Source: an uncultured Alphaproteobacteria bacterium
Lineage (GTDB): Bacteria; Pseudomonadota; Alphaproteobacteria; Rs-D84
Reading direction: 5' to 3'
Length of the DNA: 64,000 nt
Assembly (NCBI GenBank): GCA_947175875.1
Contig: CAMWON010000003.1
Location: forward strand, 1-64,000
Under the pieces are notes generated by a model. That model was given only the letters and a program-made list of their open reading frames with translations, did not search any database and had not been told where the DNA came from. Below, one piece after another: positions 29,518 to 62,907 of the stretch. How positions within the stretch are numbered: the stretch's first letter is position 1; each line of letters starts with the position of its first letter. Position numbers and translations under genes: made by a program.

Positions 29518-29667
29518 ATGAAAAAAGTAATGTTGGCTCTGTTTGCCGTTATGACATTGGCTGCGTGCACCGGTTCTTACAAGTCCGGCAACTGCGAATA
29601 TGATTTCTTGCTGCACAAGGATATTTCTATTTCCAAGATTATCGGCAATGCGACCGGTGGTTGCTAA
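29518..29667 (+). CDS. Small lipoprotein
   Basis: A 49-residue precursor: KKVMLALFAVMTLAAC signal with lipobox LAAC, then a Gly/Ser-rich mature peptide with two more Cys. A strong ribosome site (AAAAAGGAGAAAAG) precedes ATG 29518 and a GC-rich terminator follows, so it is a single-gene unit. Confidence 0.75.
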   Translation: MKKVMLALFAVMTLAACTGSYKSGNCEYDFLLHKDISISKIIGNATGGC

Positions 29668-29671
29668 TCCG

Positions 29672-29696
29672 GGGCGCCCATCGGGCGCCTTTTTTA
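29672..29696 (+). terminator. Intrinsic terminator after small lipoprotein gene
   Basis: The stem GGCGCCC/GGGCGCC is followed by TTTTTTATT. Confidence 0.9.
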
Positions 29697-29725
29697 TTGA
29701 TTTTTTTGCCATTTTATGGTATAAT
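29697..29725 (+). promoter_or_regulatory. Promoter of tail-tip-like gene 1
   Basis: TTGATT (29697-29702), a 17-bp spacer and TATAAT (29720-29725). The same promoter, down to TTGATTTTT, lies before the related gene at 50195. Confidence 0.85.
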
Positions 29726-29737
29726 AAAATTAATGTT

Positions 29738-29767
29738 GGCTACGGATTTATTCCGTGGCTTTTTTTA
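29738..29767 (+). terminator. Leader terminator 1 of tail-tip-like gene 1
   Basis: The stem GCTACGGA/TCCGTGGC followed by eight Ts ends a leader of only ~35 nt. A second stem, CCGGC/GCCGG plus seven Ts, follows at 29770-29790. The gene can be expressed only by read-through. Confidence 0.85.
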
Positions 29768-29769
29768 TC

Positions 29770-29790
29770 GCCGGCAATGCCGGTTTTTTT
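29770..29790 (+). terminator. Leader terminator 2 of tail-tip-like gene 1
   Basis: The stem CCGGC/GCCGG with a 3-nt loop, then TTTTTTT, between the first leader terminator and the ribosome site of the gene at 29807. Confidence 0.75.
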
Positions 29791-29806
29791 ATTAAAGGAG
29801 ACAAAT

Positions 29807-30265
29807 ATGTCAAAAAAAGTCCAAATTCGTCGTGGTACCGCGGCCCAGCATGAAACATTTATCGGCGCCGAGGGCGAGATAACAATGGATACAACAAACA
29901 AGACCCTGCGCGTGCACGACGGCGCAACGCCCGGCGGCCATCTGGTTGGCGGCTCTGCGCTGTCGGAAATTGCGGATTATGTTATTGAAACCCAAACGCC
30001 AACCGCCGCTAATAATTATACATGGTATCGAAAATATAAATCGGGATGGATAGAACAGGGCGGCTATGTCTCGGCAACCGGAATCGCCACCGTAACATTG
30101 CCGATACCGCTGACAACATTATTTACATTTTGCCGCGGCCAGACGTCTTTATCCGGCACCAGCACCGCCAGTCACAATACATTGGCCGCCGTTTTCGGCA
30201 GTGCCACCACAACAAGCGTAAATATCAACGGTGGTGGATATTGGTTCGTCAACGGCGTTGCTTAA
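29807..30265 (+). CDS. Tail-fibre-type N-terminal domain protein 1
   Basis: A 152-residue protein. Residues 4-45 (VQIRRGTAAQHETF...GE-TMDTTNKTLRVHDG) match the N-terminal domain shared by Mtd-type and other phage tail-fibre proteins. The C-terminal ~100 residues are a beta-rich Ser/Thr/Gly domain, plausibly a trimeric tip. ATG 29807 follows AAAGGAGACAAAT. Two paralogues are at 43545 and 50195 with unrelated C-terminal parts. No other phage genes are adjacent, so it may be a remnant, an alternative fibre for the prophage, or a domesticated surface protein. Confidence 0.75.
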   Translation: MSKKVQIRRGTAAQHETFIGAEGEITMDTTNKTLRVHDGATPGGHLVGGSALSEIADYVIETQTPTAANNYTWYRKYKSGWIEQGGYVSATGIATVTLPIPLTTLFTFCRGQTSLSGTSTASHNTLAAVFGSATTTSVNINGGGYWFVNGVA

Positions 30266-31224
30266 TGCCCTCTGATTTTTCGGCGCCATTTTTTAACCGG
30301 CACCACTGATGCGGCGATACGGCGCAGCGTGTAAAATTTCGGACGTGATTTTGTATTCGGCTTCGCGGGCTTAAACAGCTCGTCGGTTGTCGAACAAAAA
30401 CAGATTTTCCCACTTAAGTCCGCAATTTTGCGCGCCTGTGCCGGCTCGCTTTCAACAAATATGTTCGTATGGCGCAGACTTTTGTATATTTTCGCCTTGT
30501 GCGATGCGTGCAGGCCTTCCTTACGTCTTTCCTCGGCCGTTTTATTTTCCAGCATGTACAATTTGTCGTACTTTACGCCGTTTCGCTTTAACCATTCCTC
30601 GGTTTCTTTTCTGTATTTCCCCAATCTGGACGTAACCAGCGCGGCCACCTTGTACTGCGGAATATACAGCGGTCTGGCATTTAAAATGAAATCAATATAC
30701 TTTTCCCCGTCGTCGTTTTGGTCTGGTAGTGGATCCATGCATAATACGCCGTCAATATCTAATGCGGCATTTTGCAGAAAAATATGGTTTAAGTAATTCC
30801 ATTGGAAAACGCGGGGCTGTGGCACGGCGCACAGTGCGACATCAACCAGATTTTCCACCCCCGGCTTGTAATATACGGCGCCGTATTTTATGTTGTATTT
30901 TGTGGCAACCGCACTGGCGCCCACGGCGGCGCGTATTTTTTCCATCGCCCGGCCGGAATTCAAGGAATCATCAACTATCAGTACGTTTTTAATTTCCGCG
31001 TCCAAGCTGACCCGGAAAGTCGCTTTGACGGTTTTTGTAAAGCTTTCATCTAAAAATTCGTTTATGCTGCACACCGGTTTTGACAGTGCCAATCCAATCA
31101 TATATGCGGGCACCATGCCGCTGCGCGGAATTCCGACAATTAAATCCACCGGCGGCAGCTTGTGAATATTTGCCTTTATGTCCAGAATTAAATCTTTGTA
31201 TGTTTTATAATGCAAATTATCCAT
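30262..31224 (-). CDS. Phosphoribosyltransferase-HAD fusion
   Basis: A 320-residue protein. The N-terminal half is a type I phosphoribosyltransferase (GIPRSGMVPA near residue 35, PRPP loop VLIVDDSLNSGRA near residue 85). The second half begins like a HAD phosphatase (LDIDGVLCMDP near residue 160). Fusions of this kind occur in surface-polysaccharide loci, where they may supply a phosphorylated sugar or polyol. The ATG at 31224 overlaps the end of the adjacent glycosyltransferase, so it is the last gene of the minus-strand glycan operon. Confidence 0.8.
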   Translation of the reverse strand: MDNLHYKTYKDLILDIKANIHKLPPVDLIVGIPRSGMVPAYMIGLALSKPVCSINEFLDESFTKTVKATFRVSLDAEIKNVLIVDDSLNSGRAMEKIRAAVGASAVATKYNIKYGAVYYKPGVENLVDVALCAVPQPRVFQWNYLNHIFLQNAALDIDGVLCMDPLPDQNDDGEKYIDFILNARPLYIPQYKVAALVTSRLGKYRKETEEWLKRNGVKYDKLYMLENKTAEERRKEGLHASHKAKIYKSLRHTNIFVESEPAQARKIADLSGKICFCSTTDELFKPAKPNTKSRPKFYTLRRIAASVVPVKKWRRKIRGH

Positions 31225-32326
31225 TATATTTAACCCCATCATTGTTTTTCGGCAGTTTCAGGCTTATCAACGGAATTCCCAATAAAGATACTCTTACATG
31301 ATTGTTGCGATATTTTTTTATCCGTGCGACAGGGATACAGTTAAACAGCTTTATCTTTGTCACGGCCGGCTTGCGCAGATTTGTTGTCGCAATATATTCA
31401 TATAACCCGTCGGTGTCATCGCATACAAGGTACGGATATATTTTGGGCTCATATTTTTGCAACATGTCCTTGTGCTTGAATTTTTTGAACAAATCAAGTG
31501 TTGCGTTCATAATCAGCATTCGAGTTTTCGCTTTGGTGGTTCTGAAAAAACAGTAGTGTGCCATAAAGCGAAACATTCCGGCAAATGCGGCATAATAGTC
31601 TTGCTCTGATAGATTCTGTTCGTTCAAGAAATCCAAGATTAAATTGGCGGCTTGTATTTTATGTTCAATTTTATCGTCAGACAAGTACTCCGATGACAGC
31701 GAGCCGGCAACGCGAACATAGTTATAAAATGTATCTGGAACAATCGCTATTTTATTTGCCAATATGGCACATTTTATAACAAATACGGTATCTTCACTGG
31801 AGCTTAACCCCTGCGGGTTTTGTACTTGGTTGTTTTTTATAAACTCGGTTTTATAAATGGCACACCATTGTGTATAGTTAAAAAATATTTTATTTTCTTC
31901 AATTTGTGATAACCATTTCGTAAAGTCCCGCGTTGTGTTGTCCAACATTCTTTCGCGTATATTACCGACTGTAATGTCGGCACCCGTTTCGACGGCCTTG
32001 GCATACAGTTTTTCATAGAAGTCCAAATTTACATAGTCATCCGGGTCAACAAAGCCCAAATACTGACCGCATGCGGCCTTGATTCCGGTATTACGTGCCA
32101 CTGCAACGCCGCTGTTTTTATCCAATGCAATTACATGAATGCGTTTGTCGGCTTGTTCATATTTGCGCAAAATATCCAACGAATTATCCGTTGATTTATC
32201 GTCTATACATATAATTTCAATATCCGACAGTGTTTGCTTAATTAAGCTATCTATACAGCGCTCTAAATATTGCGCAACATTATATACCGGAATGATAACG
32301 CTTATTTTGGGAATAGTATTTATCAT
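31217..32326 (-). CDS. Family 2 glycosyltransferase
   Basis: A 369-residue GT2 enzyme. The GT-A fold starts at residue 7 (ISVIIPVYNVAQYLERCIDSL), with DDKSTDNS, the DXD-region FVDPDDYV, and a C-terminal ~150 residues of unknown role. It transfers a sugar from an NDP donor in glycan synthesis. It overlaps the neighbouring GT2 by 4 bp and is about half identical to it in the first 120 residues, suggesting duplication. Confidence 0.92.
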   Translation of the reverse strand: MINTIPKISVIIPVYNVAQYLERCIDSLIKQTLSDIEIICIDDKSTDNSLDILRKYEQADKRIHVIALDKNSGVAVARNTGIKAACGQYLGFVDPDDYVNLDFYEKLYAKAVETGADITVGNIRERMLDNTTRDFTKWLSQIEENKIFFNYTQWCAIYKTEFIKNNQVQNPQGLSSSEDTVFVIKCAILANKIAIVPDTFYNYVRVAGSLSSEYLSDDKIEHKIQAANLILDFLNEQNLSEQDYYAAFAGMFRFMAHYCFFRTTKAKTRMLIMNATLDLFKKFKHKDMLQKYEPKIYPYLVCDDTDGLYEYIATTNLRKPAVTKIKLFNCIPVARIKKYRNNHVRVSLLGIPLISLKLPKNNDGVKYNG

Positions 32327-33483
32327 TTTGATTTAATCCTTATAATGGGCAGATACATGAAGTTTAATCTATATACACCGTATTCATTTTTTATGCGCAG
32401 TAATTGCAGGCCACACAGTCTTACTATCAATTTTTTCTCTGTATGTTGCAAACGTACAATAGGCAGACAGCCGAACAAGTAAAACGTCTTTCTGATATGC
32501 GTTTTTTTAATTTCTTTCTCCGGTGTCATATTGGACCAGCATTCTATTATTCCTTCTGCGTCATAGGATTGCAGACAGTCGGAAAAATGTTTCCCCCAGC
32601 GTAATGCCAACACTTTTGCGATTTCGGATTTTTTCTTGCATTCCTTAAACAGCTCCACGGTAGCGTTGCCGATATCGTTTCTGCATTTTTTGGAAGTGTT
32701 TTTGCGAAAGTGTGACTCCATTAACCCGATTAACCCGACATAGCGTGATACATAGTCCTTTTCTGAAATGTCGGACGCACGGTTGTATGTTTGTGCCAGC
32801 ATCGCAAAGGCTTTTAATCTTGAGGCTATCTTATGCGGCGGCATTATCTGTTCGTCCAGGCTGCCCTCGCGTCGAATGTAATAATAAAATACGTCGCTAC
32901 GCGTCAACAGCGTGTTCGCATGGCGCAGGCATTCGGTTAAAAATACGGTGTCTTGGCCGCTGATAACATCTACGGGGAAATGCAGTTTATGGCGTTTTAT
33001 CATATCAGCACGGTATATCGCGGTCCACCATTGCCATGCAAAATACCATTTCCCATGTCGTTCAATATTCTTTATTTCATTTGAGTCTGTAAAGGTAACG
33101 CCGTCCAATTTTGTAATCTTTACATTTCCGCGCACCATGTCCGCATTTTCTTTTTTTGCGGTTGCGTACAGTTTTTCGTAAAAATCGGCGTCAATATAAT
33201 CGTCACTGTCCACAAAGCCCAGATATTCGCCCCGCGCGGCGTCAATTCCGGCATTGCGGGCGGTGGCGACACCGCTGTTTTTATCCAGTGAGATTACATG
33301 TATTTGCGGATATTTGTTCTCGTATTCCTGCAAAATTTCCAGCGAATTATCTGTTGACTTGTCGTCTATACAAATAATTTCAATATCGGACAGAGTTTGG
33401 GCGACCAAAGAATCCAAGCAACGTGCCAGATACGGGCCGACATTATAAACGGGAACAACGACAGATATTTTAATATCAGACAT
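32323..33483 (-). CDS. Family 2 glycosyltransferase, first gene of minus-strand operon
   Basis: A 386-residue GT2 enzyme with SVVVPVYNVGPYLARCLDSL, IDDKSTDNSLEIL and VDSDDYIDADFYEKLY. Probable start is ATG 33483 (AAGGA 11 nt upstream); GTG 33492 is possible. Its 5' region contains the left inverted repeat at 33509-33527 and the promoter at 33549-33577, which points at this gene in the assembled orientation. Confidence 0.92.
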   Translation of the reverse strand: MSDIKISVVVPVYNVGPYLARCLDSLVAQTLSDIEIICIDDKSTDNSLEILQEYENKYPQIHVISLDKNSGVATARNAGIDAARGEYLGFVDSDDYIDADFYEKLYATAKKENADMVRGNVKITKLDGVTFTDSNEIKNIERHGKWYFAWQWWTAIYRADMIKRHKLHFPVDVISGQDTVFLTECLRHANTLLTRSDVFYYYIRREGSLDEQIMPPHKIASRLKAFAMLAQTYNRASDISEKDYVSRYVGLIGLMESHFRKNTSKKCRNDIGNATVELFKECKKKSEIAKVLALRWGKHFSDCLQSYDAEGIIECWSNMTPEKEIKKTHIRKTFYLFGCLPIVRLQHTEKKLIVRLCGLQLLRIKNEYGVYRLNFMYLPIIRIKSK

Positions 33484-33508
33484 AATAGCCACTATCCTTG
33501 GGGTGTTT

Positions 33509-33527
33509 CAATCAAAGGTTCGTTAAA
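33509..33527 (+). repeat. Left inverted repeat of invertible promoter element
   Basis: 19 bp, the exact reverse complement of 33597-33615. The wider 22-bp site (33509-33530, CAAT...ATTG) is itself an imperfect dyad, as expected of a serine-invertase crossover site. Confidence 0.85.
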
Positions 33528-33548
33528 TTGTTGCAGTTTACATACCGG

Positions 33549-33577
33549 ACTATAGGTTAATATTCCCACATTGTCAA
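33549..33577 (-). promoter_or_regulatory. Invertible promoter between glycan operons
   Basis: On the minus strand: TTGACA (33577-33572), a 17-bp spacer and TATAGT (33554-33549), a near-consensus sigma70 promoter. It lies wholly between the two 19-bp inverted repeats. As assembled it drives the minus-strand operon (33483 to 30262). Inversion would point it at the CDP-sugar operon starting at 33784. I see no equally good fixed promoter for the plus-strand operon. Confidence 0.8.
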
Positions 33578-33596
33578 CATATTTAACCCGCTCAAC

Positions 33597-33615
33597 TTTA
33601 ACGAACCTTTGATTG
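33597..33615 (-). repeat. Right inverted repeat of invertible promoter element
   Basis: Perfect 19-bp partner of 33509-33527, leaving 69 bp between the arms. Fifteen of its bases (TTAACGAACCTTTGA) recur at 62752-62766 beside a serine recombinase gene. Confidence 0.85.
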
Positions 33616-33627
33616 TTGACGCTTAAA

Positions 33628-33740
33628 AACCGCGATGGGTGCGGTACATCGCAAGATTATCGGAATCAGGTGCCTAGGGGGACTTGATTGTTTGAACACC
33701 CATCACCACAGAATAGGAATAAGTGACTATGGTTTTATGA
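33628..33740 (+). ncRNA. Structured leader of the plus-strand glycan operon
   Basis: The strand GATGGGTG can pair with downstream CACCCATC, or its GCGATG part with nearby CATCGC; the two pairings exclude each other. Inside are AATCAGG/CTTGATT and GATT/AATC hairpins. A terminator-like stem ACCACAG/CTATGGT plus TTTT follows. It lies just outside the invertible element, so a flipped promoter would transcribe it first. It lacks the P1-P2 domain of the other RNA family. Attenuation is inference. Confidence 0.5.
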
Positions 33741-33783: not shown

Positions 33784-34818
33784 ATGGCAGACAATGGTAT
33801 GGGACCGCAAGTATCTGTTTTAACGCCAATTTATAATACGCATGTCAAATATTTGCGCGAGTGTATTGACTCCGTTCTGGCACAGACCTTTTCAGACTTT
33901 GAATTCATCATTTTGGACAATGCATCCGATGCATATGTGGCGGAATTGGTCGCGTCTTATGACGACCCGCGCATTCGTTATTTCCGGGTGGATGAAAATA
34001 TCGGTCCGGCGGGCGGTCGTAATTTTTGTATCAGTCACGCCCGCGGGAAATATCTGGCGATACTGGATTCCGATGACGTCGCGCTGCCGGAACGCCTGGC
34101 GGACCAGGTTGCCTTTATGGATGCGCACCCGTCTGTGGGTGTCTTGGGCACGTTCAGTCGTACGACCGACGGTCGTGAATTTTTCAGCGACACATTGCCA
34201 ACGGCCAGTGACGCCATCTGCCGGCACCTGCTGTTTTGCGGAAACATGCTGTGCCATTCCAGTGTGATGATACGCGCGGACGTACTGCGCGATAATAAAT
34301 TGGAATACGACCCGAACCTGTTTCCGGCCGAAGACTATGCGTTGTGGCTGGATTTAACAGGGCGTACGGAATTCGCTCTCCTGCCGCGGGTTTTGACACT
34401 GTACCGCTTTTTCCCGACCAGCGTGTCCCAGCAAAATCTGACGCGCCAGTGGCGCAATGCCGTCCGGGCCCAGCTGGCCGCGATTGGCCGCAACCATAAT
34501 ATTGATATTGACGCCGTGGATGATTTGGCGGCCCTGTATGCCGGGGACACGTCCCGCGCGGCAAACGGGATAAAGGCTCTGGATAATCTGGTGGGGCGGT
34601 TAAACGAACAAAAACTGCCGGGAAGCATGGTCTATGACATGTTTCGCGGACAATTTAAGCATATTTGTTATCACACCCATTCGTTTGGGGGGCTATGGCG
34701 TTTGATGACGTGTCCGGCGGCCGGATATTACGGCCAAGGGATTGGCTGGCGTGCGTTTTGTTTCATAACGCGCGGCATTTTTAGAAACAAAAGCAATGTT
34801 AAAAAGGATAAAGAATGA
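33784..34818 (+). CDS. Family 2 glycosyltransferase, first gene of plus-strand operon
   Basis: A 344-residue GT2 enzyme (VSVLTPIYNTHVKYLRECID, LDNASDAYV, LDSDDVALPERLADQV). ATG 33784 follows AGGGAATT. Its stop overlaps rfbF by 4 bp, the first of several overlaps that tie the plus-strand genes into one operon. GC content is host-like here. Confidence 0.92.
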   Translation: MADNGMGPQVSVLTPIYNTHVKYLRECIDSVLAQTFSDFEFIILDNASDAYVAELVASYDDPRIRYFRVDENIGPAGGRNFCISHARGKYLAILDSDDVALPERLADQVAFMDAHPSVGVLGTFSRTTDGREFFSDTLPTASDAICRHLLFCGNMLCHSSVMIRADVLRDNKLEYDPNLFPAEDYALWLDLTGRTEFALLPRVLTLYRFFPTSVSQQNLTRQWRNAVRAQLAAIGRNHNIDIDAVDDLAALYAGDTSRAANGIKALDNLVGRLNEQKLPGSMVYDMFRGQFKHICYHTHSFGGLWRLMTCPAAGYYGQGIGWRAFCFITRGIFRNKSNVKKDKE

Positions 34819-35615
34819 AAACATTGATATTGGCGGGCGGCCTTGGAACACGTCTGGGCGAAGAAACGCATCTGCGCCCAAAACCCATGGTAGAGATTGG
34901 CGGATATCCAATCCTGTGGCATATTATGAAGACCTATTCACACTATGGCCATAATGATTTTATAATTTTATGCGGCTATAAACAGGAATATATCAAGCGC
35001 TGGTTTATCGACTATTACATGAACCAGTCGGACATAACGGTTGACCTGAGCGACAACAAGGTCGATGTTCATCGCACCACGTCCGAACCGTGGCGTGTGA
35101 CATTGCTTGACACCGGTGTTGACACCATGACCGGCAGCCGTATTAAGAAAGCCGCCAAATATATCGACGGCCAGCCCTTTATGCTGACATACGGCGACGG
35201 TGTGTCCGACGTGAATATAAACGATTTGCTGGCGGCGCATTCCGCATCCGGCAAACTGGCGACAATGACGGCAATTCAACCGGCCGGCCGCTTTGGTGTT
35301 TTGGAATTTGCCCCCGATGGCAAAACGGTTTCATCGTTTCAGGAAAAACCGCGTGGCGCGACCAGTTGGATTAACGCCGGCTTTTTTGTATGCCAGCCCC
35401 AGGTCCTGGACTATATCCCCGACGGCAACGGCATCATGTGGGAGGCCGAGCCCCTGCGCGGCCTGGTCGCCGACGGACAGCTGAATACCTTCAAGCATAC
35501 CGGATTCTGGCATCCAATGGACATGCTGCGCGATAAGGAACATTTAAACAAGCTGTGGGCGTCCGGCCAGGCGCCGTGGCATGTATGGGGCGGCAAAGGG
35601 GGAAATCAGCGATGA
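34815..35615 (+). CDS. rfbF: Glucose-1-phosphate cytidylyltransferase
   Basis: A 266-residue nucleotidyltransferase: AGGLGTRLGEETHLRPKPMVEIGG at the N-terminus binds CTP, followed by DYYMNQSD, TYGDGVSDV and INAGFFV. It makes CDP-glucose from CTP and glucose-1-phosphate, the first step to CDP-deoxysugars of O-antigens. It overlaps the next gene (ATGA). rfbG follows one gene later. Confidence 0.95.
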   Translation: MKTLILAGGLGTRLGEETHLRPKPMVEIGGYPILWHIMKTYSHYGHNDFIILCGYKQEYIKRWFIDYYMNQSDITVDLSDNKVDVHRTTSEPWRVTLLDTGVDTMTGSRIKKAAKYIDGQPFMLTYGDGVSDVNINDLLAAHSASGKLATMTAIQPAGRFGVLEFAPDGKTVSSFQEKPRGATSWINAGFFVCQPQVLDYIPDGNGIMWEAEPLRGLVADGQLNTFKHTGFWHPMDMLRDKEHLNKLWASGQAPWHVWGGKGGNQR

Positions 35616-36514
35616 AAAAAGTAGTTATTACGGGCGGGACAGGCTTTATCGGCACCAATGTCACGAACGAAATGCTGCGCCGCGGATACCAGGTACACCA
35701 GATGGTGTACGGCGGCCGTCCGGTGGCGCAGGAAAACGTCGTTTATCACGACATGAATCTGATGGACGCCGCGTCGGTTGATCGTTTTTTTGATAAAAAC
35801 CCGATTGACAGTTTAATTCATCTGGCATGGTATGTCGGGCCAAAGTGTCATGTGTCCAACCTGAACATGGACTGGGTTATCGCGACGCTGCAATTGCTCA
35901 AAAGTTTTGCAGAGCATGGTGGCCGCCGCTTCTTGGGCGCGGGCACCGTATCGGAATATGAATATAAGTACGGCTATCTGCGCGAGGATGAAACGCCGAC
36001 CAATCCCGGAACACTGTACGGCAACGGGAAAAACGCGGTTTATAACACGGCGCGCGTATATTGCGCACAAAACGGTATAGACTTTAAATGGCCGCGCATT
36101 TTCAACCTGTATGGCCCGAATGAAAAGTCGGCGCGTTTAATGCCGTCGGTTATCAATGCGTGTCTGCGGGGCGAAGACGTCCGTGTCAGCGACTGCTTAA
36201 AATTTCAAGACTATCTGCATGTAGAGGATACCGCCCGCGGCATCGCGTCGGTATTTGATTCCGATTTGCAGGGTGCGGTCAATATCTGCTCCGGCCGGCC
36301 GGTACAGCTGCGTGAAATTGTTGAGAAAATCGCGCGCTTTACCGATTTCCGTGGGCAAATTTTGTGGGGCGCCATACCCGCCGCATTCGGTGACGATTTG
36401 GTCGTGGGCCAAAACGACAAATTAAAATCAACAGGCTGGACCCCGAAATATTCATTGGATACGGGTCTTCAACAAACAATCAATTGGTGGAAAGAGGTTC
36501 AAAATGTACGGTAA
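35612..36514 (+). CDS. NAD-dependent epimerase/dehydratase (CDP-sugar reductase candidate)
   Basis: A 300-residue extended SDR: TGGTGFIGTNV nucleotide-binding motif at residue 8, catalytic-type YGNGKNAVYN (YxxxK) near residue 140. Between rfbF and rfbG, so it most likely reduces or epimerises CDP-4-keto-6-deoxyglucose. No rfbH-type 3-dehydrase is present, so the product is probably a 6-deoxyhexose rather than a 3,6-dideoxyhexose. ATG 35612 overlaps the rfbF stop. Confidence 0.85.
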   Translation: MKKVVITGGTGFIGTNVTNEMLRRGYQVHQMVYGGRPVAQENVVYHDMNLMDAASVDRFFDKNPIDSLIHLAWYVGPKCHVSNLNMDWVIATLQLLKSFAEHGGRRFLGAGTVSEYEYKYGYLREDETPTNPGTLYGNGKNAVYNTARVYCAQNGIDFKWPRIFNLYGPNEKSARLMPSVINACLRGEDVRVSDCLKFQDYLHVEDTARGIASVFDSDLQGAVNICSGRPVQLREIVEKIARFTDFRGQILWGAIPAAFGDDLVVGQNDKLKSTGWTPKYSLDTGLQQTINWWKEVQNVR

Positions 36515-37583
36515 TATTTATAAAGACAAAACTGTTTTGGTAACGGGTCATACGGGTTTTAAGGGCTCGTGGCTGACCATATGGCTCCAGATGATGGGGG
36601 CGCGCGTGGTCGGATATTCTTTGGACCCCAGCTCCGATAACGGTAATTTCGGTGCATGTCATTTAAGCGGTCGCATGTTTGCGGACGTCCGCGGTGACGT
36701 TCGTGATATAGATCATCTGGCGGCGACGGTAAAGAAATTCCGGCCGGAAATGGTCTTTCATTTGGCGGCCCAGGCGCTGGTGCGGCCCTCTTATGAATCC
36801 CCGCGCGAAACATTTGAAACGAACATTATGGGTACAATCAATGTGCTGGATATTATGCGCCGCGACGAAAATCTGCGTCGTGCGGTAATGATTACGTCCG
36901 ACAAGTGCTATGAAAATGTGGAACAGATTTGGGGGTACAAGGAAACGGACCGCATGGGCGGCCAGGACCCGTATTCCGCATCCAAAGGCGCGGCAGAGCT
37001 GACCATCGCGGCATATCGTCATTCTTATTTTGACCCGATGAAATTTGACCAGCATGGCAAGGCCGTCGCCTCTGTTCGTGCCGGCAATGTTATCGGCGGT
37101 GGCGACTGGTCCGTGAATCGCTTGATTCCGGATTGCATCCGCTATATCCAGGCGGACCGCCCGATTGAAATTCGTAACCCGGTTGCGACGCGCCCGTGGG
37201 AACATGTTTTGGAACCCTTGTCCGGATACCTGCGCGTCGGCCAGAAACTGTATGAAGACCCCGTAAAATACGCCACCAGCTTTAATTTCGGACCCGGCCT
37301 GGCCGCGAACAAGACTGTGCTGGAGGTTGTGCGCCGCTTGGTCGAATATTACGGCCGCGGCACCGTTATCGACGCATCCGACCCGAATGCGCTGCATGAA
37401 AACACTTTGCTGAATCTGGATGTGACCAAGGCGTACACCATGCTTGACTGGGAGGCGCGATGGAATCTGACCGAGGCGGTTCAGAAAACGGTCGACTGGT
37501 ACAAAGAAGCCCAGAAATCAAAAGACATGTACGATTTTTGTGTAAAACAAATTTTGGAGCATGGCGAACATCATGTCAGATAA
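36504..37583 (+). CDS. rfbG: CDP-glucose 4,6-dehydratase
   Basis: A 359-residue SDR: VTGHTGFKGSWL at residue 12, a signature of CDP-glucose dehydratases; SDKCYEN; and catalytic DPYSASKGAAEL (YxxxK) near residue 158. It converts CDP-glucose to CDP-4-keto-6-deoxyglucose. It overlaps both neighbours (11 and 23 bp), indicating tight coupling. Confidence 0.96.
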   Translation: MYGNIYKDKTVLVTGHTGFKGSWLTIWLQMMGARVVGYSLDPSSDNGNFGACHLSGRMFADVRGDVRDIDHLAATVKKFRPEMVFHLAAQALVRPSYESPRETFETNIMGTINVLDIMRRDENLRRAVMITSDKCYENVEQIWGYKETDRMGGQDPYSASKGAAELTIAAYRHSYFDPMKFDQHGKAVASVRAGNVIGGGDWSVNRLIPDCIRYIQADRPIEIRNPVATRPWEHVLEPLSGYLRVGQKLYEDPVKYATSFNFGPGLAANKTVLEVVRRLVEYYGRGTVIDASDPNALHENTLLNLDVTKAYTMLDWEARWNLTEAVQKTVDWYKEAQKSKDMYDFCVKQILEHGEHHVR

Positions 37584-38841
37584 TACGGCAATCTTGGGTG
37601 CCGGATTTGCCGGTGTTTCCGCCGCCTATCATATTGGTCGGCGCGGCGGAACACCCGTCGTGTACGAGCGTGACGCCGACTGGGGCGGCCTGTGTGGTTT
37701 TTTCACTTTGGACGGCTTTCGGTTTGACCGTTTCGTGCATTTTACATTCGCGCCCGATGATTACACCCGTGATTTGTTCGAGGCATCGTCCCCGACATAT
37801 TCGCACCCCAGTGTCTCCGGAAATTATTATCACGGACATTGGCTAAAGCACCCGGCCCAGAACAATCTGGCGCCGCTGACAACGGACGAAAAGGTAAAAA
37901 TAATCACCGATTTTATCGCGCGTCCCGCCGCGCCCGCCGACGGTTTTAAAAATTACGACCAGTGGCTGCGTACACAGTACGGTAATTATTTTACCGATAA
38001 TTTTCCGGCAATATATACCCGTAAATATTGGGGATTAAACGCACAGGATATGGAGGCGACATGGATTGCGGGCCGTATGCATTCGCCCGACCTGGCCCAG
38101 GTGCTGCGCGGCGCCTTTGAAACACAGAATGAAAATTTTTATTACACAAATTTTATGAAATATCCCCGTCAGGGCGGCTTTCGCAGTTTGATGGACAAAT
38201 GCCGCGCCGGGTTGGATATTCGCTTTAACAAACGCGTGGCACAAATAGAGCCGGCCACGCGCCGGATTACATTTGCGGACGGCACCGCCACCACATACGC
38301 GCGCTTGATTTCATCGTTGCCGATAACGGAAATGGTAAAAATGATTGCGGATGTGTCGTCGGATGTTCGTGCGGCGGCCGACGCCCTGCATTGGACGTGC
38401 GGGTACCAGGTGTCGCTGGGGTTCCGTCGGCCGGACGTGGCGAAATACCTGTGGTTTTATATATATGATGCGGATATTCCGCCGGCGCGCGTTTATTCGC
38501 CGAATTTAAAGTCGCCGGACAATGTCCCGGCGGGATGCTCCTCGCTCCAGGCAGAGGTGTTCTTTGACTGTCGCGACAAAATTCCCGCCGCGGACCGGGT
38601 TCTGCATGACACCACGGAAAAACTGAAGCAGATTTGTGATTTTACAGACGACGACATTGCCGTCCGTGATATTCGTTTTGAACCGTACGCCAATATAACA
38701 TTCGCGCATGGCACGCGTGAAAATCGTGAAGTCGTGCGCAACTATCTGCGGTCCGTCGGGATTGAAACCATCGGCCGCTTTGGCACATGGGATTATTTAT
38801 GGAGCCACGATGTTTTTGCCCAGGCAAAGGAGATTGTATAA
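37561..38841 (+). CDS. FAD-dependent oxidoreductase of the glycan locus
   Basis: A 426-residue flavoprotein: Rossmann motif AILGAGFAGVSAAYHIGRRG, then GLCGFFTLDGFRFDRFVHF, as in the protoporphyrinogen oxidase/UDP-galactopyranose mutase-like family. In this locus a mutase or oxidoreductase acting on an NDP-sugar or lipid-linked glycan is likely. ATG 37561 overlaps rfbG; ATG 37573 gives a start closer to the FAD motif. Overlaps licD by one base. Confidence 0.82.
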   Translation: MANIMSDNTAILGAGFAGVSAAYHIGRRGGTPVVYERDADWGGLCGFFTLDGFRFDRFVHFTFAPDDYTRDLFEASSPTYSHPSVSGNYYHGHWLKHPAQNNLAPLTTDEKVKIITDFIARPAAPADGFKNYDQWLRTQYGNYFTDNFPAIYTRKYWGLNAQDMEATWIAGRMHSPDLAQVLRGAFETQNENFYYTNFMKYPRQGGFRSLMDKCRAGLDIRFNKRVAQIEPATRRITFADGTATTYARLISSLPITEMVKMIADVSSDVRAAADALHWTCGYQVSLGFRRPDVAKYLWFYIYDADIPPARVYSPNLKSPDNVPAGCSSLQAEVFFDCRDKIPAADRVLHDTTEKLKQICDFTDDDIAVRDIRFEPYANITFAHGTRENREVVRNYLRSVGIETIGRFGTWDYLWSHDVFAQAKEIV

Positions 38842-39998
38842 TGAAAAAGGCGGCGTATCGTTTGTTTTCTCATGTGACGTTTGGTGAAACAAGAAGCAAT
38901 ATGAAGATGCATTATCGTCAGCTGGACAAAGCAGCGCGCCAGGCCATTGCACTGGACAATATTCACAAATCGGAAACAGTCGGTATAAGCAATATGTTTC
39001 TTCACCAGAAAATGAGCGATATTGTCAATAAACTTTCTGACATGAACGCAGAACTAAATACACGCTTGAATCTTCTTCAGGATCGTATCGCTCAGGCAGA
39101 ATCAAAGTTAGCCAATACAGTGATTGCAACCACGGCGATGAGTATGGATAAATCTTTTATTGACGTCAGGTGCGATTTTCTAAAAACTTATCCTCGCGCA
39201 ACAGGTTTTTTAGCAGATGTGCAATATTGCAATTTACATATACTAAAATTTCTGAAAAAATTAACTGATGAAAACGGCTTAAGCTTTTGGCTGCATGCAG
39301 GAACACTTATTGGTGCATTACGACACCAGGGATTTGTTCCATGGGACGATGATGTCGATGTAGGAATGATGCGTGCTGATTTTGATGCATTGGTAAATAT
39401 CGTAGCATCGCGTGATGATTGCCGAATATACAGATATTATAATGACATAACATGCAGTGTATCATACCAGTTCAAAATGAACGATATTCCTGTTTTTATA
39501 GATATTGCTGTCTTTGACTGGACAGTAGCCCCAAAACAAGAAGACCGCACAAACTTTCTTGAAAAATTTCGCAATGCCCGTCGGTCATTGGTTGGGGATT
39601 TCAGACAAAAGCTGAAATCCCCAGCCGTAGAGAATATTGGATATAATCATTGTGGACCTTATTCGCCATTAATACAAAAAAAGGTTGATGCGCTGATACA
39701 AAAATATGCGAATGCCGTTCAAGCCCGCCAAGATCATGGTGACGCCATTTATTTGGGAATGGAAAACTACCCGTTCCCTTATCCGGTAATGGCTGTAGAT
39801 CAAATGTTTCCTTTGCAAAATATATTGTTTGAAGGGTGCAGTTTTCAGGCGCCGGTAAATGCCGAACTGTATTTGTCTGGATATGGGGACATTTGGGCTT
39901 GCCCTGCGGATATTGGCAAAACGCCTCATTTATATGCCTTCGAGCCATTTAGAAAGGAAATAAAACAATTTATAGGAAAGGAAAAAATAAATGACTGA
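38841..39998 (+). CDS. LicD-family phosphotransferase
   Basis: A 385-residue protein. Residues 1-115 are a helical, coiled-coil-like extension. The LicD domain begins near residue 140: FWLHAGTLIGALRHQGFVPWDDDVDVGM, with the DDDVD nucleotidyltransferase metal site. LicD enzymes move phosphocholine or a similar phospho-alcohol onto glycans. No choline uptake or licC genes are visible, so the donor is unknown. From about residue 70 the DNA becomes clearly more AT-rich, pointing to a different origin from the rfb genes. Confidence 0.88.
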   Translation: MKKAAYRLFSHVTFGETRSNMKMHYRQLDKAARQAIALDNIHKSETVGISNMFLHQKMSDIVNKLSDMNAELNTRLNLLQDRIAQAESKLANTVIATTAMSMDKSFIDVRCDFLKTYPRATGFLADVQYCNLHILKFLKKLTDENGLSFWLHAGTLIGALRHQGFVPWDDDVDVGMMRADFDALVNIVASRDDCRIYRYYNDITCSVSYQFKMNDIPVFIDIAVFDWTVAPKQEDRTNFLEKFRNARRSLVGDFRQKLKSPAVENIGYNHCGPYSPLIQKKVDALIQKYANAVQARQDHGDAIYLGMENYPFPYPVMAVDQMFPLQNILFEGCSFQAPVNAELYLSGYGDIWACPADIGKTPHLYAFEPFRKEIKQFIGKEKIND

Positions 39999-41136
39999 AA
40001 AAGAAATGAATACTTTGGAATGCTTTGAATGCGAAATGTATTCATCAGATGTTCATAAAGACGTCAAACCTGTGTTTGATGATACATCAAGCGCAATATG
40101 CTTGGTATCCAGCGATGAATATGCGCCGTTCGCTTCGTTGGTTATTCAGGGGATAAAGGATAATGCCTCTGCGGACAAGAAGTACGATATAGTTGTTTTA
40201 ACCAAAGATATGGAGATGCGCAACATATACGTACTTGAACAAATGGCGTCAGATCACCCAAACATATCCATACGTGTTAGAAATGTTCAGTCACAGATTA
40301 AAAATTTGAAATTTTACACATGGGCGCATTTTACCATTGATACATACCTGCGGCTGCTTATTCCAAGTATATTTAAAGACTATGACCGGGTTTTATATTT
40401 GGACAGTGATATTATCGTTAATCATGATGTGGCTGATTTGCTAAATATAGATATGGGGAATAATTATATCGCGGCGGCATATGACACGCATGTCGTATCA
40501 TATAATCATTCCGTTGATGATTATAGCCAGTATAACATAGAAACGCTGGGGCTGACTGATCCTGATAAATATTTTCAAATGGGTGTTGCATTATATAACA
40601 TCGGTAAAATAAACAAAGACTACCAGCCGAGTTATCTGATAACAGAAGCATCTAAGGCTAAATTAAAATGGCTTGACCAAGATTTCTTGAATAAAACATT
40701 TCGTGGTCATATAAAACCCATTTCTAACAAATGGAATGTAATGATTTGCAACAGATTGCCCATATTAGATGAGGTTTATCTGCCTGAAAAGATGCGCCGT
40801 GAATATGCAGACGCTCGTCGAGATCCATACATCGTCCATTATGTTGGCAGATGTGCCCCGTGTTTTACATTAAAGCCTGATTTGTGGACTTTCTTCTGGA
40901 AATATGCACGTCGCAGTCCATATTACGAAATAATTTTGCAAAAGATGGCTCTAAATGCATCGCACATGTATAATTTGGATATCAAAGAACAGGAGCGCTT
41001 ATCCTATTTGCCATCTTGGCCCCGTATTAGATATGCGTATTATCGTTTAATGCAGCATATTTCAACAGGGAAAAATTATTTAAAATTTAAGCAGAAAAAG
41101 AACAACATAAAAAACGCATTGCGTGCAAGAAGATAG
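39991..41136 (+). CDS. Family 8 glycosyltransferase
   Basis: A 381-residue GT8 enzyme: an AICLVSSDEYAPFASLVIQGI start, LYLDSDIIVNHDVADL with the DXD manganese site near residue 138, LKWLDQDFLN and HYVG near the end. It uses UDP-glucose or UDP-galactose to extend LPS-type oligosaccharides. It overlaps licD by 8 bp. AT-rich like its neighbours. Confidence 0.92.
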   Translation: MTEKEMNTLECFECEMYSSDVHKDVKPVFDDTSSAICLVSSDEYAPFASLVIQGIKDNASADKKYDIVVLTKDMEMRNIYVLEQMASDHPNISIRVRNVQSQIKNLKFYTWAHFTIDTYLRLLIPSIFKDYDRVLYLDSDIIVNHDVADLLNIDMGNNYIAAAYDTHVVSYNHSVDDYSQYNIETLGLTDPDKYFQMGVALYNIGKINKDYQPSYLITEASKAKLKWLDQDFLNKTFRGHIKPISNKWNVMICNRLPILDEVYLPEKMRREYADARRDPYIVHYVGRCAPCFTLKPDLWTFFWKYARRSPYYEIILQKMALNASHMYNLDIKEQERLSYLPSWPRIRYAYYRLMQHISTGKNYLKFKQKKNNIKNALRARR

Positions 41137-41151
41137 GACTTTGTCGCGGCC

Positions 41152-42855
41152 ATGGCTTATACATATGAAATTTCAGGAAATAATAATCATATCGTTCTTT
41201 TTGACGATATGGGGAATGAGTTTTGTATAGAAGATGATATTCCTGGGCTGTTTTTGCGTGTTGGCGGTAATAATAACATCATAAGAATCCACAAAAACAC
41301 GGTGTTTAATAACAGCAGCATCGCCATTGAAAATGATAATGCAGAAATAGAAATCCAAGAATCAAGCCATCTTTGCATCTTGGTTGGGATAGCGTCCGGT
41401 TACGGTCAAAAATTACATATTGGGCGTGAAACCAGAATAGGTGGGGCTAATTTTTCACTGGCTGAAAATTCGCAGATTTTTATCGGTGATAATTGTCTGC
41501 TTTCATATGATATTCAATTTATGGCCGCCGATGGGCATTCCATTTTTGACAATGACACCCATGAATTCCTGAATAAGCCACTGCCAATCGTTATCGGGAA
41601 TCATTGCTGGATTGGGTGGCGGTGTACAATATCAAAGGGCGCAGGACTTGCAGATAACAGCGTTTTGGGAATGTGCAGTGTATTAAGCCGTAAAATATCT
41701 ACGCCAAATGTTGCCATTGCAGGGGTGCCCGCTCGCATATTGCGCAGAAATATAAACTGGTCATCGGATCAGCTGTTAACATTGTATCAGCGCGGCTGGT
41801 GTGAAGCGGTCGTTGACAAAGATGTCGTAATGGCTTTTTCATGCAGTAATTACTACGTGCCGTATTTGGGTGTGGCGCTTACATCGTTGGCGGAACACAT
41901 ATCCCGCTCAAAGAATTATAAGATTTTTATAATGGAAAACGGGCTTAGCGACAAAAACAAGTCAAATCTTATGGCGATTGCTGCAGATAAACCCAATATG
42001 TCAATTGAATTTAAAAATGTTTCCAAATTGGTGCAAAATCTGGAGCTGCCGACACGCGGCCATGTATCGCGTGAGACATTTTTTAAGTTGCTTATACCTA
42101 CATTGTTTCGTGAATATAGACGCGTTATGTTTTGTGATTCAGATATTTTGTTTATGTCGGATCCCGCGCCGCTGTTCTTTATGGATATGGGCGATAAAAA
42201 GATAGCCGCAGGTTTGTGCCATTTATGGAATGGAATCTTAAATATGCGCTCAGAAATTGCGGAATATGCATCGCACGATTTGCACTTAACGAATGCCGAT
42301 GCGTATTTTCAAGGCGGAATATTGTTGTTTAATAACGAACAAATCAGTGATGACGATGTTGCGGCGATGATGAAAATTGCTGCGGGTAAAAATTATCATT
42401 TTTTGGATCAAGATGTGCTGAATATGTATTTTCAGGATAGTTGCTGCTTGTTTGACAGTGCCTGGAATTATGAAACGCCTCAGCAAAGTTTTGTTAAAAG
42501 TAATGAATTTATGTCGCCGGCGCATTTGGCCGCATATAATGCTGCAGGCGAAAATCCGCTTATCATACATTATTCTGGGCCGGACAAGCCGTGGCTGGAT
42601 ACGCATGAAGATCATGCCGGTGATTGGTGGAAATGTGCCCGCCGCTCATTGTTTTATGAAGATTTACAAGACCGTCGTTCCGCATACGTTGCCAAAATTG
42701 TGTATATTCGTACACATACAGGACGTATGCACTTTAAGTGCATGATGTATCGGGTCGCTCGGCATTTGTGCGGCGGGGATTTAAGAAAAAAATTACGCTC
42801 TGAATATGATAGGCTTAAAACCTTAATTCGGCATGCTGCCGATTTTGATAGTTAA
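41152..42855 (+). CDS. Acyltransferase-GT8 fusion protein
   Basis: A 567-residue two-domain protein. Residues ~1-205 are a left-handed beta-helix acyltransferase (hexapeptide repeats, SKGAGLADNSVLGMCSVLS, GVPARIL). Residues ~220-500 are a GT8 domain (VVMAFSCSNYYVPYLGVALTSL, DSDILF, HFLDQDVLN, IHYSGPDKPW). It would add a sugar and an O-acetyl group in one chain. The GT8 part resembles the preceding gene, so a duplication followed by fusion is likely. AT-rich; the last plus-strand gene of the operon. No terminator is obvious. Confidence 0.88.
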   Translation: MAYTYEISGNNNHIVLFDDMGNEFCIEDDIPGLFLRVGGNNNIIRIHKNTVFNNSSIAIENDNAEIEIQESSHLCILVGIASGYGQKLHIGRETRIGGANFSLAENSQIFIGDNCLLSYDIQFMAADGHSIFDNDTHEFLNKPLPIVIGNHCWIGWRCTISKGAGLADNSVLGMCSVLSRKISTPNVAIAGVPARILRRNINWSSDQLLTLYQRGWCEAVVDKDVVMAFSCSNYYVPYLGVALTSLAEHISRSKNYKIFIMENGLSDKNKSNLMAIAADKPNMSIEFKNVSKLVQNLELPTRGHVSRETFFKLLIPTLFREYRRVMFCDSDILFMSDPAPLFFMDMGDKKIAAGLCHLWNGILNMRSEIAEYASHDLHLTNADAYFQGGILLFNNEQISDDDVAAMMKIAAGKNYHFLDQDVLNMYFQDSCCLFDSAWNYETPQQSFVKSNEFMSPAHLAAYNAAGENPLIIHYSGPDKPWLDTHEDHAGDWWKCARRSLFYEDLQDRRSAYVAKIVYIRTHTGRMHFKCMMYRVARHLCGGDLRKKLRSEYDRLKTLIRHAADFDS

Positions 42856-43086: not shown

Positions 43087-43545
43087 CTATGCCATATAAG
43101 ATTTGGCTTTTACAAACCTGAAATATGCGGTTGCGCCGGAAAAAGAGTACGATACAGTAACCGTATCCCCCGCGGCGGCGGGCACCCACAGATACTTGGC
43201 ACCTGTTTGATAGCCATCGGTTGTTATTCCAATACCACTGCTAAGGTTTAATAGCGTAAGATATGCTCCTGATGTTCCGGCCGCTTTATTAATTGTAAAA
43301 TATCCGCTGGCGGGTGCTGTGTATCTGGCACCACTGGCGCCCAGCGCCAACTCAATATAATTGGAACCTGGCATTATTTGTGTCGCAATTTCGTCTCTGC
43401 TGGCCAATATTGTGCCGCCGGGCGTGACTCCGTCATGAACACGCAACGTGTTCAGGTCGGTGTCAACCGTAACCTCGCCGGGGGCGCCTGTAAAGTTATT
43501 ATGCTGGGCGCTGGTGCCGCGGCGCATTTGTATTTGTCTTGCCAT
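43087..43545 (-). CDS. Tail-fibre-type N-terminal domain protein 2
   Basis: A 152-residue protein with the same N-terminal 45 residues as the proteins at 29807 and 50195 (IQMRRGTSAQHNNF...GEVTVDTDLNTLRVHDG) and a different beta-rich C-terminal domain with Gly/Ala/Tyr repeats (about residues 60-145). ATG 43545 lies behind CAGGAG. Upstream are a promoter and a short leader ending in a terminator, as in the two paralogues. Confidence 0.75.
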   Translation of the reverse strand: MARQIQMRRGTSAQHNNFTGAPGEVTVDTDLNTLRVHDGVTPGGTILASRDEIATQIMPGSNYIELALGASGARYTAPASGYFTINKAAGTSGAYLTLLNLSSGIGITTDGYQTGAKYLWVPAAAGDTVTVSYSFSGATAYFRFVKAKSYMA

Positions 43546-43653
43546 CAATTTTCTCCTGTGTATTAAAAAGAAATTTGATGGATGCGTCCTGTTTGAAGTG
43601 TCTGTATCCAACCGATTTCTGTGAATAATGCCCGTCGTGCGGACATAAAAATG

Positions 43654-60414: not shown

Positions 60415-60630
60415 ATGACAACATCAAAAATATTAATGACCCAGGCAGAGGCGGCGGCTTATCTTGGGACGACTGTCGGAACATTGAACAGCTGGCGGCA
60501 CTATGGTCGTCATGATATCCCATTTGTGCGTTGGGGTAATCGTATCAGATACCGTAAAGAGGATTTGGATATCTGGATTGCCCAGCATAGTGAAAATACG
60601 CAAATCGCAGACCAAGGAGGGATAAAATGA
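60415..60630 (+). CDS. Excisionase-like HTH protein
   Basis: A 71-residue MerR/HTH_17-type protein: LMTQAEAAAYLGTTVGTLNSWRHYGR, then PFVRWGNRIRYRKEDLDIWI with a winged hairpin. Such AlpA/Xis-like proteins direct excision of integrated elements. ATG 60415 follows AAAAGGAGTCAAT. It overlaps the integrase gene by 4 bp. Confidence 0.88.
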   Translation: MTTSKILMTQAEAAAYLGTTVGTLNSWRHYGRHDIPFVRWGNRIRYRKEDLDIWIAQHSENTQIADQGGIK

Positions 60631-62153
60631 TAACCTCCACAAAGCGAATATACAGCTCTGTTCGTATTTCAACATCTCTTTGCTATACGATAGAAGATAT
60701 TTGTCGGCTTTTTAGTGACCAAGGCCTCTGTCCAAATACTGTCCGTAACTGGATAAAGCAAGGCTTGCCGGTATGCTGCAAGGGTACACCAAAACTTATT
60801 CATGGAGCAGCCTTGGCCGAGTTTCTAAAACAGAAAAATGCCAGCCGTAAATTCAAAATGCGTTTTGACGAGATGTTTTGCCTGCACTGTCGCACAAAAC
60901 ATGTTCCGCTGAATCATTGTATAGAACTTGAGCAAGATGCGGCCTGCCTCAAGGCGCGCGGCCTGTGTCCACGTACCAGCAAAACGATGAACCGGAACTA
61001 TAAAAATAGCGACTATGACGAATTATGCCGCGTTTTCACCATAGCCAGGGACCAAAGATTATATGATTTAGTACGTCCAAGCCATAGACCTAACTTTGAT
61101 GACACTCAGGCTATACCTGAAAGTAACAATAAAAAAGGCGTTTCTAAAAAGCCAATTATGCCCATTAATGAGCACAACGAAAGGCTGAAATATAACTATA
61201 AGCTTTATCTTTGCGAGGCCAAGGGACGCGATTTAAAAACTGGCATGGCCGCTATACAGCACTTGCATCAGTTTGAAGCATTTAATAATTACTCTAATTT
61301 TGAGCAAATTGATGCTAACACCATTCATAACTATATAAGCAATATTGTAAAAAAGAGGCATTTATCGTTTTGCGAGCATAATGTACGGATGATAAAGGAT
61401 TTTTATGAATGGCTATTGCATCAGCGTGGCTACAAAATAGACTATAATATGGTGGCGCACTTTCGTTTAAGCGATAATCAGCGAAAAGCTGCCCGTGCGA
61501 CAGAATATAAAGAAAGCTATGACCTGGCCGAGATTCGCGAAGCAATTAATAAAATGCCGCGCAATACTGATATTGATCTGCGGAATCTGGCGATGGTGTC
61601 TCTACAGGCACTATGTGGATTAAGAACGGCCGAAATTAGAACGCTTAAATTAAAGCATGTTATTTTTGACAAGTCCGCCAATCGATGGATGGTCTTTGTA
61701 ACACCAAAAGATATGGAGGTAAAGTTTGCCAAGCAGCGTCAGGCTTTCTTTATGCCGTTTGATAAAGAATGGATGGATAATGTCATTTCTTGGCGTGACC
61801 GGCTGCATGAACTGGGCTGGACAGGTAAAGATCCATTTTTCCCGCCAATAGAATCACGCTTTATTAGACCAGGCGTTACCGAACACCAAATTATGAAAAC
61901 CAATATAAAAGGCAACAAGTCCATAAGAAACATATTTAGAAAGGTGTTTAATGATGCCGGCGTGCGATATTTGAATCCTCATTCTTTCCGGCATACTATT
62001 ATCAGATGGGCCAGTGCTCAATCCGCACCAATATTAAATGCGGCCAGCCAATCGTTGGGCCATTCGCATATTCAGACCAGTATGCAGTACTATGGCCAAC
62101 TACCTGCGACCAGAATAGGTGAGATTTTAAATGAGATAGAGGTGTCAAAATGA
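60627..62153 (+). CDS. Tyrosine recombinase/integrase with N-terminal HTH
   Basis: A 508-residue integrase. Residues ~15-60 look like a MerR-type HTH (YTIEDICRLFSDQGLCPNTVRNWIKQGL). Residues ~80-115 have spaced Cys (CLHC ... CLKARGLC) that may bind zinc. The SAM-like core-binding domain is near 185-270. The catalytic domain has CGLRTAEI (Arg), HSFRH and the Tyr in SMQYYGQLP near residue 490. It should insert the element at tRNA-Asn. The N-terminal HTH/Cys extension is unusual. Coupled to both neighbours by ATGA overlaps. Confidence 0.9.
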   Translation: MITSTKRIYSSVRISTSLCYTIEDICRLFSDQGLCPNTVRNWIKQGLPVCCKGTPKLIHGAALAEFLKQKNASRKFKMRFDEMFCLHCRTKHVPLNHCIELEQDAACLKARGLCPRTSKTMNRNYKNSDYDELCRVFTIARDQRLYDLVRPSHRPNFDDTQAIPESNNKKGVSKKPIMPINEHNERLKYNYKLYLCEAKGRDLKTGMAAIQHLHQFEAFNNYSNFEQIDANTIHNYISNIVKKRHLSFCEHNVRMIKDFYEWLLHQRGYKIDYNMVAHFRLSDNQRKAARATEYKESYDLAEIREAINKMPRNTDIDLRNLAMVSLQALCGLRTAEIRTLKLKHVIFDKSANRWMVFVTPKDMEVKFAKQRQAFFMPFDKEWMDNVISWRDRLHELGWTGKDPFFPPIESRFIRPGVTEHQIMKTNIKGNKSIRNIFRKVFNDAGVRYLNPHSFRHTIIRWASAQSAPILNAASQSLGHSHIQTSMQYYGQLPATRIGEILNEIEVSK

Positions 62154-62755
62154 CCTATGGTTATATCAGGGTCAGCACCGACCGCCAAGATTGCGAAAAT
62201 CAAAAGCTGGGGATAGAGGCCAAGGCAAGGTCCCTTGGCCTTGCCATAGACAAATATATCAAAGATTCTGGAATTTCTGGCACAGCCGAACCAGATGCGC
62301 GTGCGCTGGGTGGCTGTCTAAAGAATTTGAAAGCTGGGGATATTATTATTTGCAGTGAACTGTCCCGACTGGGGCGGAAACTGTTTATGATTATGCGAAT
62401 TTTAGAGCATTGCATGAAATCCGGCGCAAAGGTTTACACCGTCAAAGACGGCTATGAACTGGGCGATAATATCCAATCCAAAGTTTTGGCTTTCGCGTTT
62501 GCGCTTTCCGCAGAAATAGAGCGGGATTTGATAAGTCAGCGCACCCGTGAATCTTTGGCCAGAATAAAGGCCCAAGGCCGTAAACTGGGGCGCGCCTTTG
62601 GCAGTAAAAACCACAGTCATAAACTGGATGGCCAAGCATCAAAGATACAAAAACTAATAAAATCAGGTCTATCTAAGCGCAAAATCGCAAAAAAATTAAA
62701 GGTCAGTGCCCCGACCCTTAACGCCTTTATTCGCAATAATATTGATATTAATTAA
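62150..62755 (+). CDS. Mpi-like serine recombinase (DNA invertase) 2
   Basis: A 201-residue small serine recombinase: YGYIRVSTDRQD (Ser near residue 8), CSELSRLGRKLFMIM, AEIERDLISQRTRESL, and a C-terminal HTH (LIKSGLSKRKIAKKLKVSAPTLNAFI). About 60% identical to the copy at 43782. It overlaps the integrase gene by 4 bp, so one element carries both a tyrosine and a serine recombinase. A 15-bp match to the invertible-promoter repeat overlaps its last codons. Confidence 0.93.
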   Translation: MTYGYIRVSTDRQDCENQKLGIEAKARSLGLAIDKYIKDSGISGTAEPDARALGGCLKNLKAGDIIICSELSRLGRKLFMIMRILEHCMKSGAKVYTVKDGYELGDNIQSKVLAFAFALSAEIERDLISQRTRESLARIKAQGRKLGRAFGSKNHSHKLDGQASKIQKLIKSGLSKRKIAKKLKVSAPTLNAFIRNNIDIN

Positions 62756-62766
62756 CGAACCTTTGA
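62752..62766 (+). repeat. Third copy of the invertible-promoter repeat core
   Basis: TTAACGAACCTTTGA is identical to 15 bases of the inverted repeat at 33597-33615. It overlaps the stop codon of recombinase 2. It may be a recombination site. 62767-62907 is otherwise AT-rich with no clear gene. Confidence 0.6.
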
Positions 62767-62907
62767 AACTTACAATTTTCATTCCTATTTTATTTAAAAA
62801 TCCTCACTTTTTCAATCAAAATCATTAACAAAATTTAACCTTCATTAGAATTTTATCACAGATTTTATGGACCTTTAAACGTATCCGAATACGAGTAAGG
62901 GGAAATT

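Follow-up and report, generated by a model that had tools for sequence, protein, structure and literature searches.

A 107-bp element that separates two divergent glycan operons in an uncultured alphaproteobacterium is very probably a phase switch, flipped by the locus-linked serine invertase P0001 and giving alternative surface-glycan states. We propose that P0001 would recombine two sites and flip the segment between them, which carries a single predicted promoter. In the orientation found in the window (the whole stretch of 64,000 nucleotides analyzed here), this promoter would drive the minus-strand genes for two GT2 glycosyltransferases and a phosphoribosyltransferase, and in the reverse orientation, found in the congeneric genome G048, it would drive a plus-strand cassette (GT2, rfbF, epimerase, rfbG, oxidoreductase, licD, GT8, and GT8) through a leader RNA. 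The resulting surface-glycan states would probably be mutually exclusive. In genome size and lineage the organism resembles Candidatus Enterousia of the order Rs-D84 from animal guts (PMC12306168), to which it may belong. Our literature searches yielded no account of invertons in its lineage.

The first-pass annotation had pointed to two perfect 19-bp inverted repeats 69 bp apart, and both the coordinates and the exact reverse complementarity of these arms agree with our search (Table 1). The promoter that it placed on the minus strand between the arms was likewise found, with TTGACA at 33577-33572, a 17-nt spacer, and TATAGT at 33554-33549, agreeing with the consensus at 11 of 12 positions. 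The element thus displays the inverted repeats flanking a promoter that characterize invertons. Exact 19-bp inverted repeats within 400 bp occur once in the window and in none of 60 dinucleotide-preserving shuffles; at 15 bp, such shuffles yield 0.02 inverted repeats apiece over the same span. When ~0.89 Mb of the organism's own genome was scanned for inverted repeats (part of C5 was left out), this element was the top-scoring one among those bearing a promoter.

Table 1. Coordinates of the switch element, leader RNA, invertases, and neighboring genes in the window
Feature	Position	Strand	Basis
Left arm, CAATCAAAGGTTCGTTAAA	33509-33527	+	Exact-repeat search
Right arm, exact reverse complement of left arm	33597-33615	-	Exact-repeat search
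Invertible segment, 69 bp	33528-33596	.	Reversed relative to flanks in G048
Predicted sigma-70-type promoter, TTGACA-N17-TATAGT	33549-33577	-	Consensus match
Recombination site core, CAATCAAAGG-TT-CGTTAAATTG	33509-33530	+	Homologous sites in G048, G155, and G023
Structured leader RNA core	33634-33704	+	Closing stem 33634-33641/33697-33704 plus two hairpins
GT2 glycosyltransferase, first gene of minus operon	32323-33492	-	Probable start ATG 33484
GT2 glycosyltransferase	31217-32326	-	
Phosphoribosyltransferase-domain protein	30262-31242	-	Pribosyltran, 28.5 bits (cut-off 26.3)
GT2 glycosyltransferase, first gene of plus operon	33784-34818	+	
Glucose-1-phosphate cytidylyltransferase RfbF	34815-35615	+	TIGR02623, over cut-off
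NAD-dependent epimerase/dehydratase	35555-36514	+	
CDP-glucose 4,6-dehydratase RfbG	36504-37583	+	TIGR02622, over cut-off
Flavin amine-oxidoreductase family protein	37561-38841	+	
LicD family protein	38787-39998	+	
GT8 glycosyltransferase	39991-41136	+	
GT8 glycosyltransferase with hexapeptide acetyltransferase-like part	41152-42855	+	
Mtd_N-domain protein, between cassette and P0001	43087-43611	-	Domain match
Mpi-like serine invertase P0001	43782-44396	+	PF00239, NF009949, invertase alignment
P0002, second Mpi-like invertase	62150-62755		

Comparison with 156 genomes of the genus, the organism's own included, revealed the inversion itself. Apart from the own genome, G048 (CANSHD010000001.1, an uncultured Alphaproteobacteria metagenome-assembled genome) was the only one to match the intergenic region. 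The arms of G048 are identical to those of the window and its flanks are collinear (86% and 98.5% over 200 bp), whereas its inner segment is identical to that of the window at 66 of 69 positions (96%) when inverted, as against 42 of 72 (58%) when collinear. The breakpoints lie at the arms: the outer flank bases keep with the flanks and the inner bases change sides, the pattern that recombination within the arms should leave. Both orientations therefore occur in nature, in two congeneric species. Misassembly is unlikely to account for the orientation seen, given that a 107-bp element should fall within an ordinary read length. Searches for the exact arms in IMG/VR and, outside G048, in genome_contigs yielded no match and so no extra strains of the species.

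Diverged elements in the same arrangement, between GT2 genes homologous to those that flank the window element, were found in G155 (24-bp arms, TCAATCTAAGGTTCCTTAAATTGA, and a 61-bp gap) and G023 (22-bp arms, CAATCTAGGGACCGTTAGATTG, and a 63-bp gap). Together with the segment inverted at the arms in G048, these bear out the earlier proposal of an invertible promoter between opposing glycan operons. All four elements share the promoter pattern TTGAC[AT]-N17-TA.A.T, which takes the form TTGACT-N17-TA.A.T in G155 and G023, and have GGAATATT in common in the promoter spacer. The promoter points toward the leader-RNA (plus) operon in G048, G155, and G023; in the window it points the other way, toward the minus operon. 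The two arms of a pair are identical inside each species and differ between species, with the exception that the window and G048 have the same arms. At up to three mismatches, the site pattern was retrieved from 3 of the 156 genomes (own, G048, and G155); the site of G023 is more diverged and has AC in place of the TT that is the putative central dinucleotide of the recombination site in the window. Divided into two half-sites around TT (AC in G023), the site appears quasi-symmetric, which would suit a serine invertase.

The likely invertase of the switch is P0001, which starts at ATG 43782 (the listed open reading frame begins at TTG 43770). It unites the features of a serine recombinase, namely, a resolvase domain (PF00239, 108.9 bits), the YxRVST serine motif (as YGYIRVST, accompanied by SRLGR), and a C-terminal HTH (PF02796, 36 bits), and aligns over its full length with a solved DNA invertase. 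The first-pass annotation had invoked an Mpi-type invertase. An Mpi-like serine invertase is indeed linked to the switch in the window, G048, and G155, and P0001 matches the NCBIfam model NF009949, "master DNA invertase Mpi family," at 2e-71; however, P0001 (239.9 bits) and P0002 (256.4 bits) both miss the curated cut-off of 272 bits, and P0001 is accordingly termed Mpi-like here and is not filed as a member of the Mpi equivalog. Neither does it resemble one master invertase serving many promoters through shared repeats: at up to three mismatches, the arm sequence is found genome-wide at the switch locus only, so P0001 appears to be matched to its locus. The four closest invertases (from the window, G048, G155, and G023) are 73-91% identical to each other and at most 69% identical to the other invertases compared, and the genomes that encode them are the four with the switch architecture. 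In the window, G048, and G155, the invertase gene lies past the far (downstream) end of the plus cassette; in G023 it lies beside an Mtd_N-type gene, both on another contig than the switch. The N-terminal motif of the Mtd_N-domain protein next to P0001 recurs in a gene that adjoins the invertase in all three relatives, on the opposite strand in G048 and G155. The distance of 10.2 kb between P0001 and the switch is unlike that in most of the genus and counts against this assignment.

It is possible, though in our view unlikely, that the element is inverted by some other recombinase, be it P0002, the C6 invertase, or a tyrosine recombinase such as XerC/D or the 508-aa integrase encoded at 60627-62153. 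Six resolvase-domain and six phage-integrase-domain genes are present to draw on, and AACGAACCTTTGA, a 13-bp stretch of the arm, ends the P0002 gene (window 62752-62768; no clear partner site was seen by eye), which raises the prospect of P0002 acting on the switch too. Against this, as far as Mpi-like invertases go, G048, G155, and G023 possess the switch without a close P0002 counterpart, the only Mpi-like invertase of G023 is that of the P0001 clade (no second one at E≤1e-20), and site similarity tracks the P0001 clade. We give still less weight to a past inversion at the repeats that is now fixed in each species, switching having ceased. A single orientation was seen per species, which would fit such fixation, but arms that are perfectly matched within four species yet diverged between lineages, an invertase reading frame that is open in all four genomes, and the several inversions across the genus all speak against it. 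Perfect dyads can also be regulator sites, and one sequence cannot discriminate, but the notion that the repeats merely surround an ordinary promoter as an operator pair or a terminator-like hairpin, with no inversion, is contradicted by the reversed inside of the G048 element with its breakpoints at the arms and is extremely improbable.

On the reading that we favor, P0001 would catalyze the inversion, switching would go on within populations, and the promoter would be active in both directions, with either/or expression of the flanking operons and a corresponding glycan phenotype. The predicted functions of the plus operon comprise CDP-glucose synthesis and 4,6-dehydration, LicD, and glycosyltransferases. 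The RfbF/RfbG/LicD/GT8 genes originally assigned to it are present, with the correction that a GT2 gene precedes rfbF as the first gene. On the other side, a GT2-GT2-PRTase/HAD operon had been read; both GT2 genes and, just above cut-off, the phosphoribosyltransferase domain were recovered, while the HAD assignment received no support from Pfam or NCBIfam. The cassette of G048 matches that of the window to about 38.8 kb and then continues with different genes, suggesting that the distal cassette genes can be exchanged whereas the switch and the invertase stay in place. Both glycan operons are bracketed by two inward-facing Mtd_N-domain genes (29600-30265 and 43087-43611).

A structured leader RNA lies between the switch and the plus operon. 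The plus leader folds better than shuffled sequence (z score -3.3) and contains no promoter-like site with nine or more consensus matches. A first covariance model made from three leaders, whose alignment had too few pair counts to decide, returned 17 matches, the number needed for a judgment. In the 17-sequence alignment, which was fitted to the model, 94.8% of the cells pair, compared with 77.4% after shuffling and at most 50% after sliding, and 17 of 24 pairs show compensatory changes on both sides. An alignment based on sequence only and folded independently recovered the closing stem and the third hairpin as well as some of the second one, and 9 of its 18 pairs are compensated. The refined model detected the RNA in 33 of the 156 genomes at E≤0.001, the weakest of these matches being doubtful, and in no other genus of the order (23 genera searched, E≤1e-6). 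Matches under about 42 bits were treated as chance because they are mostly upstream of unrelated genes. Downstream of the good-score matches, the next gene encodes a glycosyltransferase or an RgpF-like, UDP-galactopyranose mutase, or HAD-type protein, with one (L202) lacking any match in Pfam; in G142, G059, and G123 (the last a weak match), the RNA shortly follows an invertase gene. Searches of Rfam gave no match over the RNA at E≤5, and none by gathering score, for the window or its relatives; the possibility of a 6S RNA relative or some other known RNA was discarded. A small open reading frame that starts at ATG 33635 of the leader was discounted, as base-pair covariation better explains the conservation. 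Just upstream of the leader RNA at L204 (1364-1459), there is a full-length, sub-threshold match to sRNA-Xcc1 (37.1 bits; gathering score 53). A genome search found a single NusG and no second NusG-type antiterminator gene. The leader RNA may control long glycan operons.

Mpi-like invertases are encoded by 117 of the 156 genomes. An all-against-all comparison of their neighborhoods (up to 20 kb each) uncovered five further inversion groups at or near such invertases, with independent events numbering roughly five, as the L098 and L107 groups may share ancestry. The short segments reversed between relatives mostly abut or overlap the 3' end of the invertase gene, as in the groups L098/L103/L104/L131, L107-L109/L112, L120/L123, and L124/L125/L127, where they lie at the 3' end of Mpi-like invertase genes and before methylase/restriction genes. 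Among the genes downstream of the inversions are glycan genes, one for an Eco57I-type methylase, and others for methylase and restriction subunits that are type III-like. A further inverted pair (L090 6721-6835 and L100 12732-12846), 2-3 kb from the invertase, adjoins the gene for a possible surface protein of 1830-1972 aa that matches nothing in Pfam. In L098, L103, L104, and L131, the reversed segment extends into the final codons of the invertase gene, and its inversion may thus yield alternative invertase C termini. Many contigs (G056:C7, G056:C4, G010:C4, G121:C4, G153:C5, and G000:C2) end no more than a few hundred bases from an Mpi-like invertase gene, as if the assembly breaks at variable DNA. 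Twice in the organism's own genome, a tyrosine recombinase gene and an Mpi-like serine recombinase gene stand side by side (window 60627-62755 and G000:C2:24-1252). A broader picture, which we hold to be evenly poised, is that the genus uses diversified, locus-specific Mpi-like invertases with cognate sites to phase-switch glycans, a giant surface protein, and restriction-modification; the glycan switches would feed a new class of structured leader RNA, through which long glycan operons would be controlled, perhaps via antitermination, although the genome encodes one NusG only, and at the present locus an exchangeable cassette would sit between switch and invertase.

The closest parallel is the Mpi system of Bacteroides fragilis, which likewise has a short promoter segment within inverted repeats before surface polysaccharide operons and a small Mpi-group serine invertase. 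In B. fragilis, seven polysaccharide loci have invertible promoters that are ON or OFF (PMC10939037). Unlike this arrangement, the single promoter of the window faces two divergent glycan operons, its invertase is locus-linked and apparently site-matched instead of being one master for many loci, and the host is an alphaproteobacterium with a genome of ~0.95 Mb. With the Hin/Gin invertases P0001 shares its small size and its resolvase domain followed by a C-terminal HTH, and the hix/gix sites are quasi-symmetric around a central dinucleotide, as the window site appears to be; however, the window segment measures 69 bp versus kilobases, and the invertase gene lies outside it. The sap system of Campylobacter fetus also has one invertible promoter that can serve genes on either side but differs in its large segment, its S-layer genes, and its recombination machinery. 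Conserved transcribed elements at the start of long polysaccharide operons are represented by the EAR leader RNA of Bacillus eps operons and by ops/JUMPstart; the leader RNA of the window holds a comparable position in front of a long glycan operon, but it has no Rfam match even at a relaxed threshold.

Phase-variable promoters are well documented in Bacteroides, and comparative genomics places one here in an uncultured alphaproteobacterium with a genome of less than 1 Mb, where such a switch would cost much to keep. One promoter facing two glycan operons is an alternative-state rather than an ON/OFF design. In this genus, elements that occur inverted between relatives are numerous and lie beside their likely invertases, so that the pairing of serine invertases with sites can be tested directly. 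The leader RNA is structured, strongly covarying, and previously undescribed, and in the genomes searched it is confined to the genus; it offers a concrete target for understanding how long glycan operons may be regulated without a NusG paralogue of the RfaH/UpxY type.
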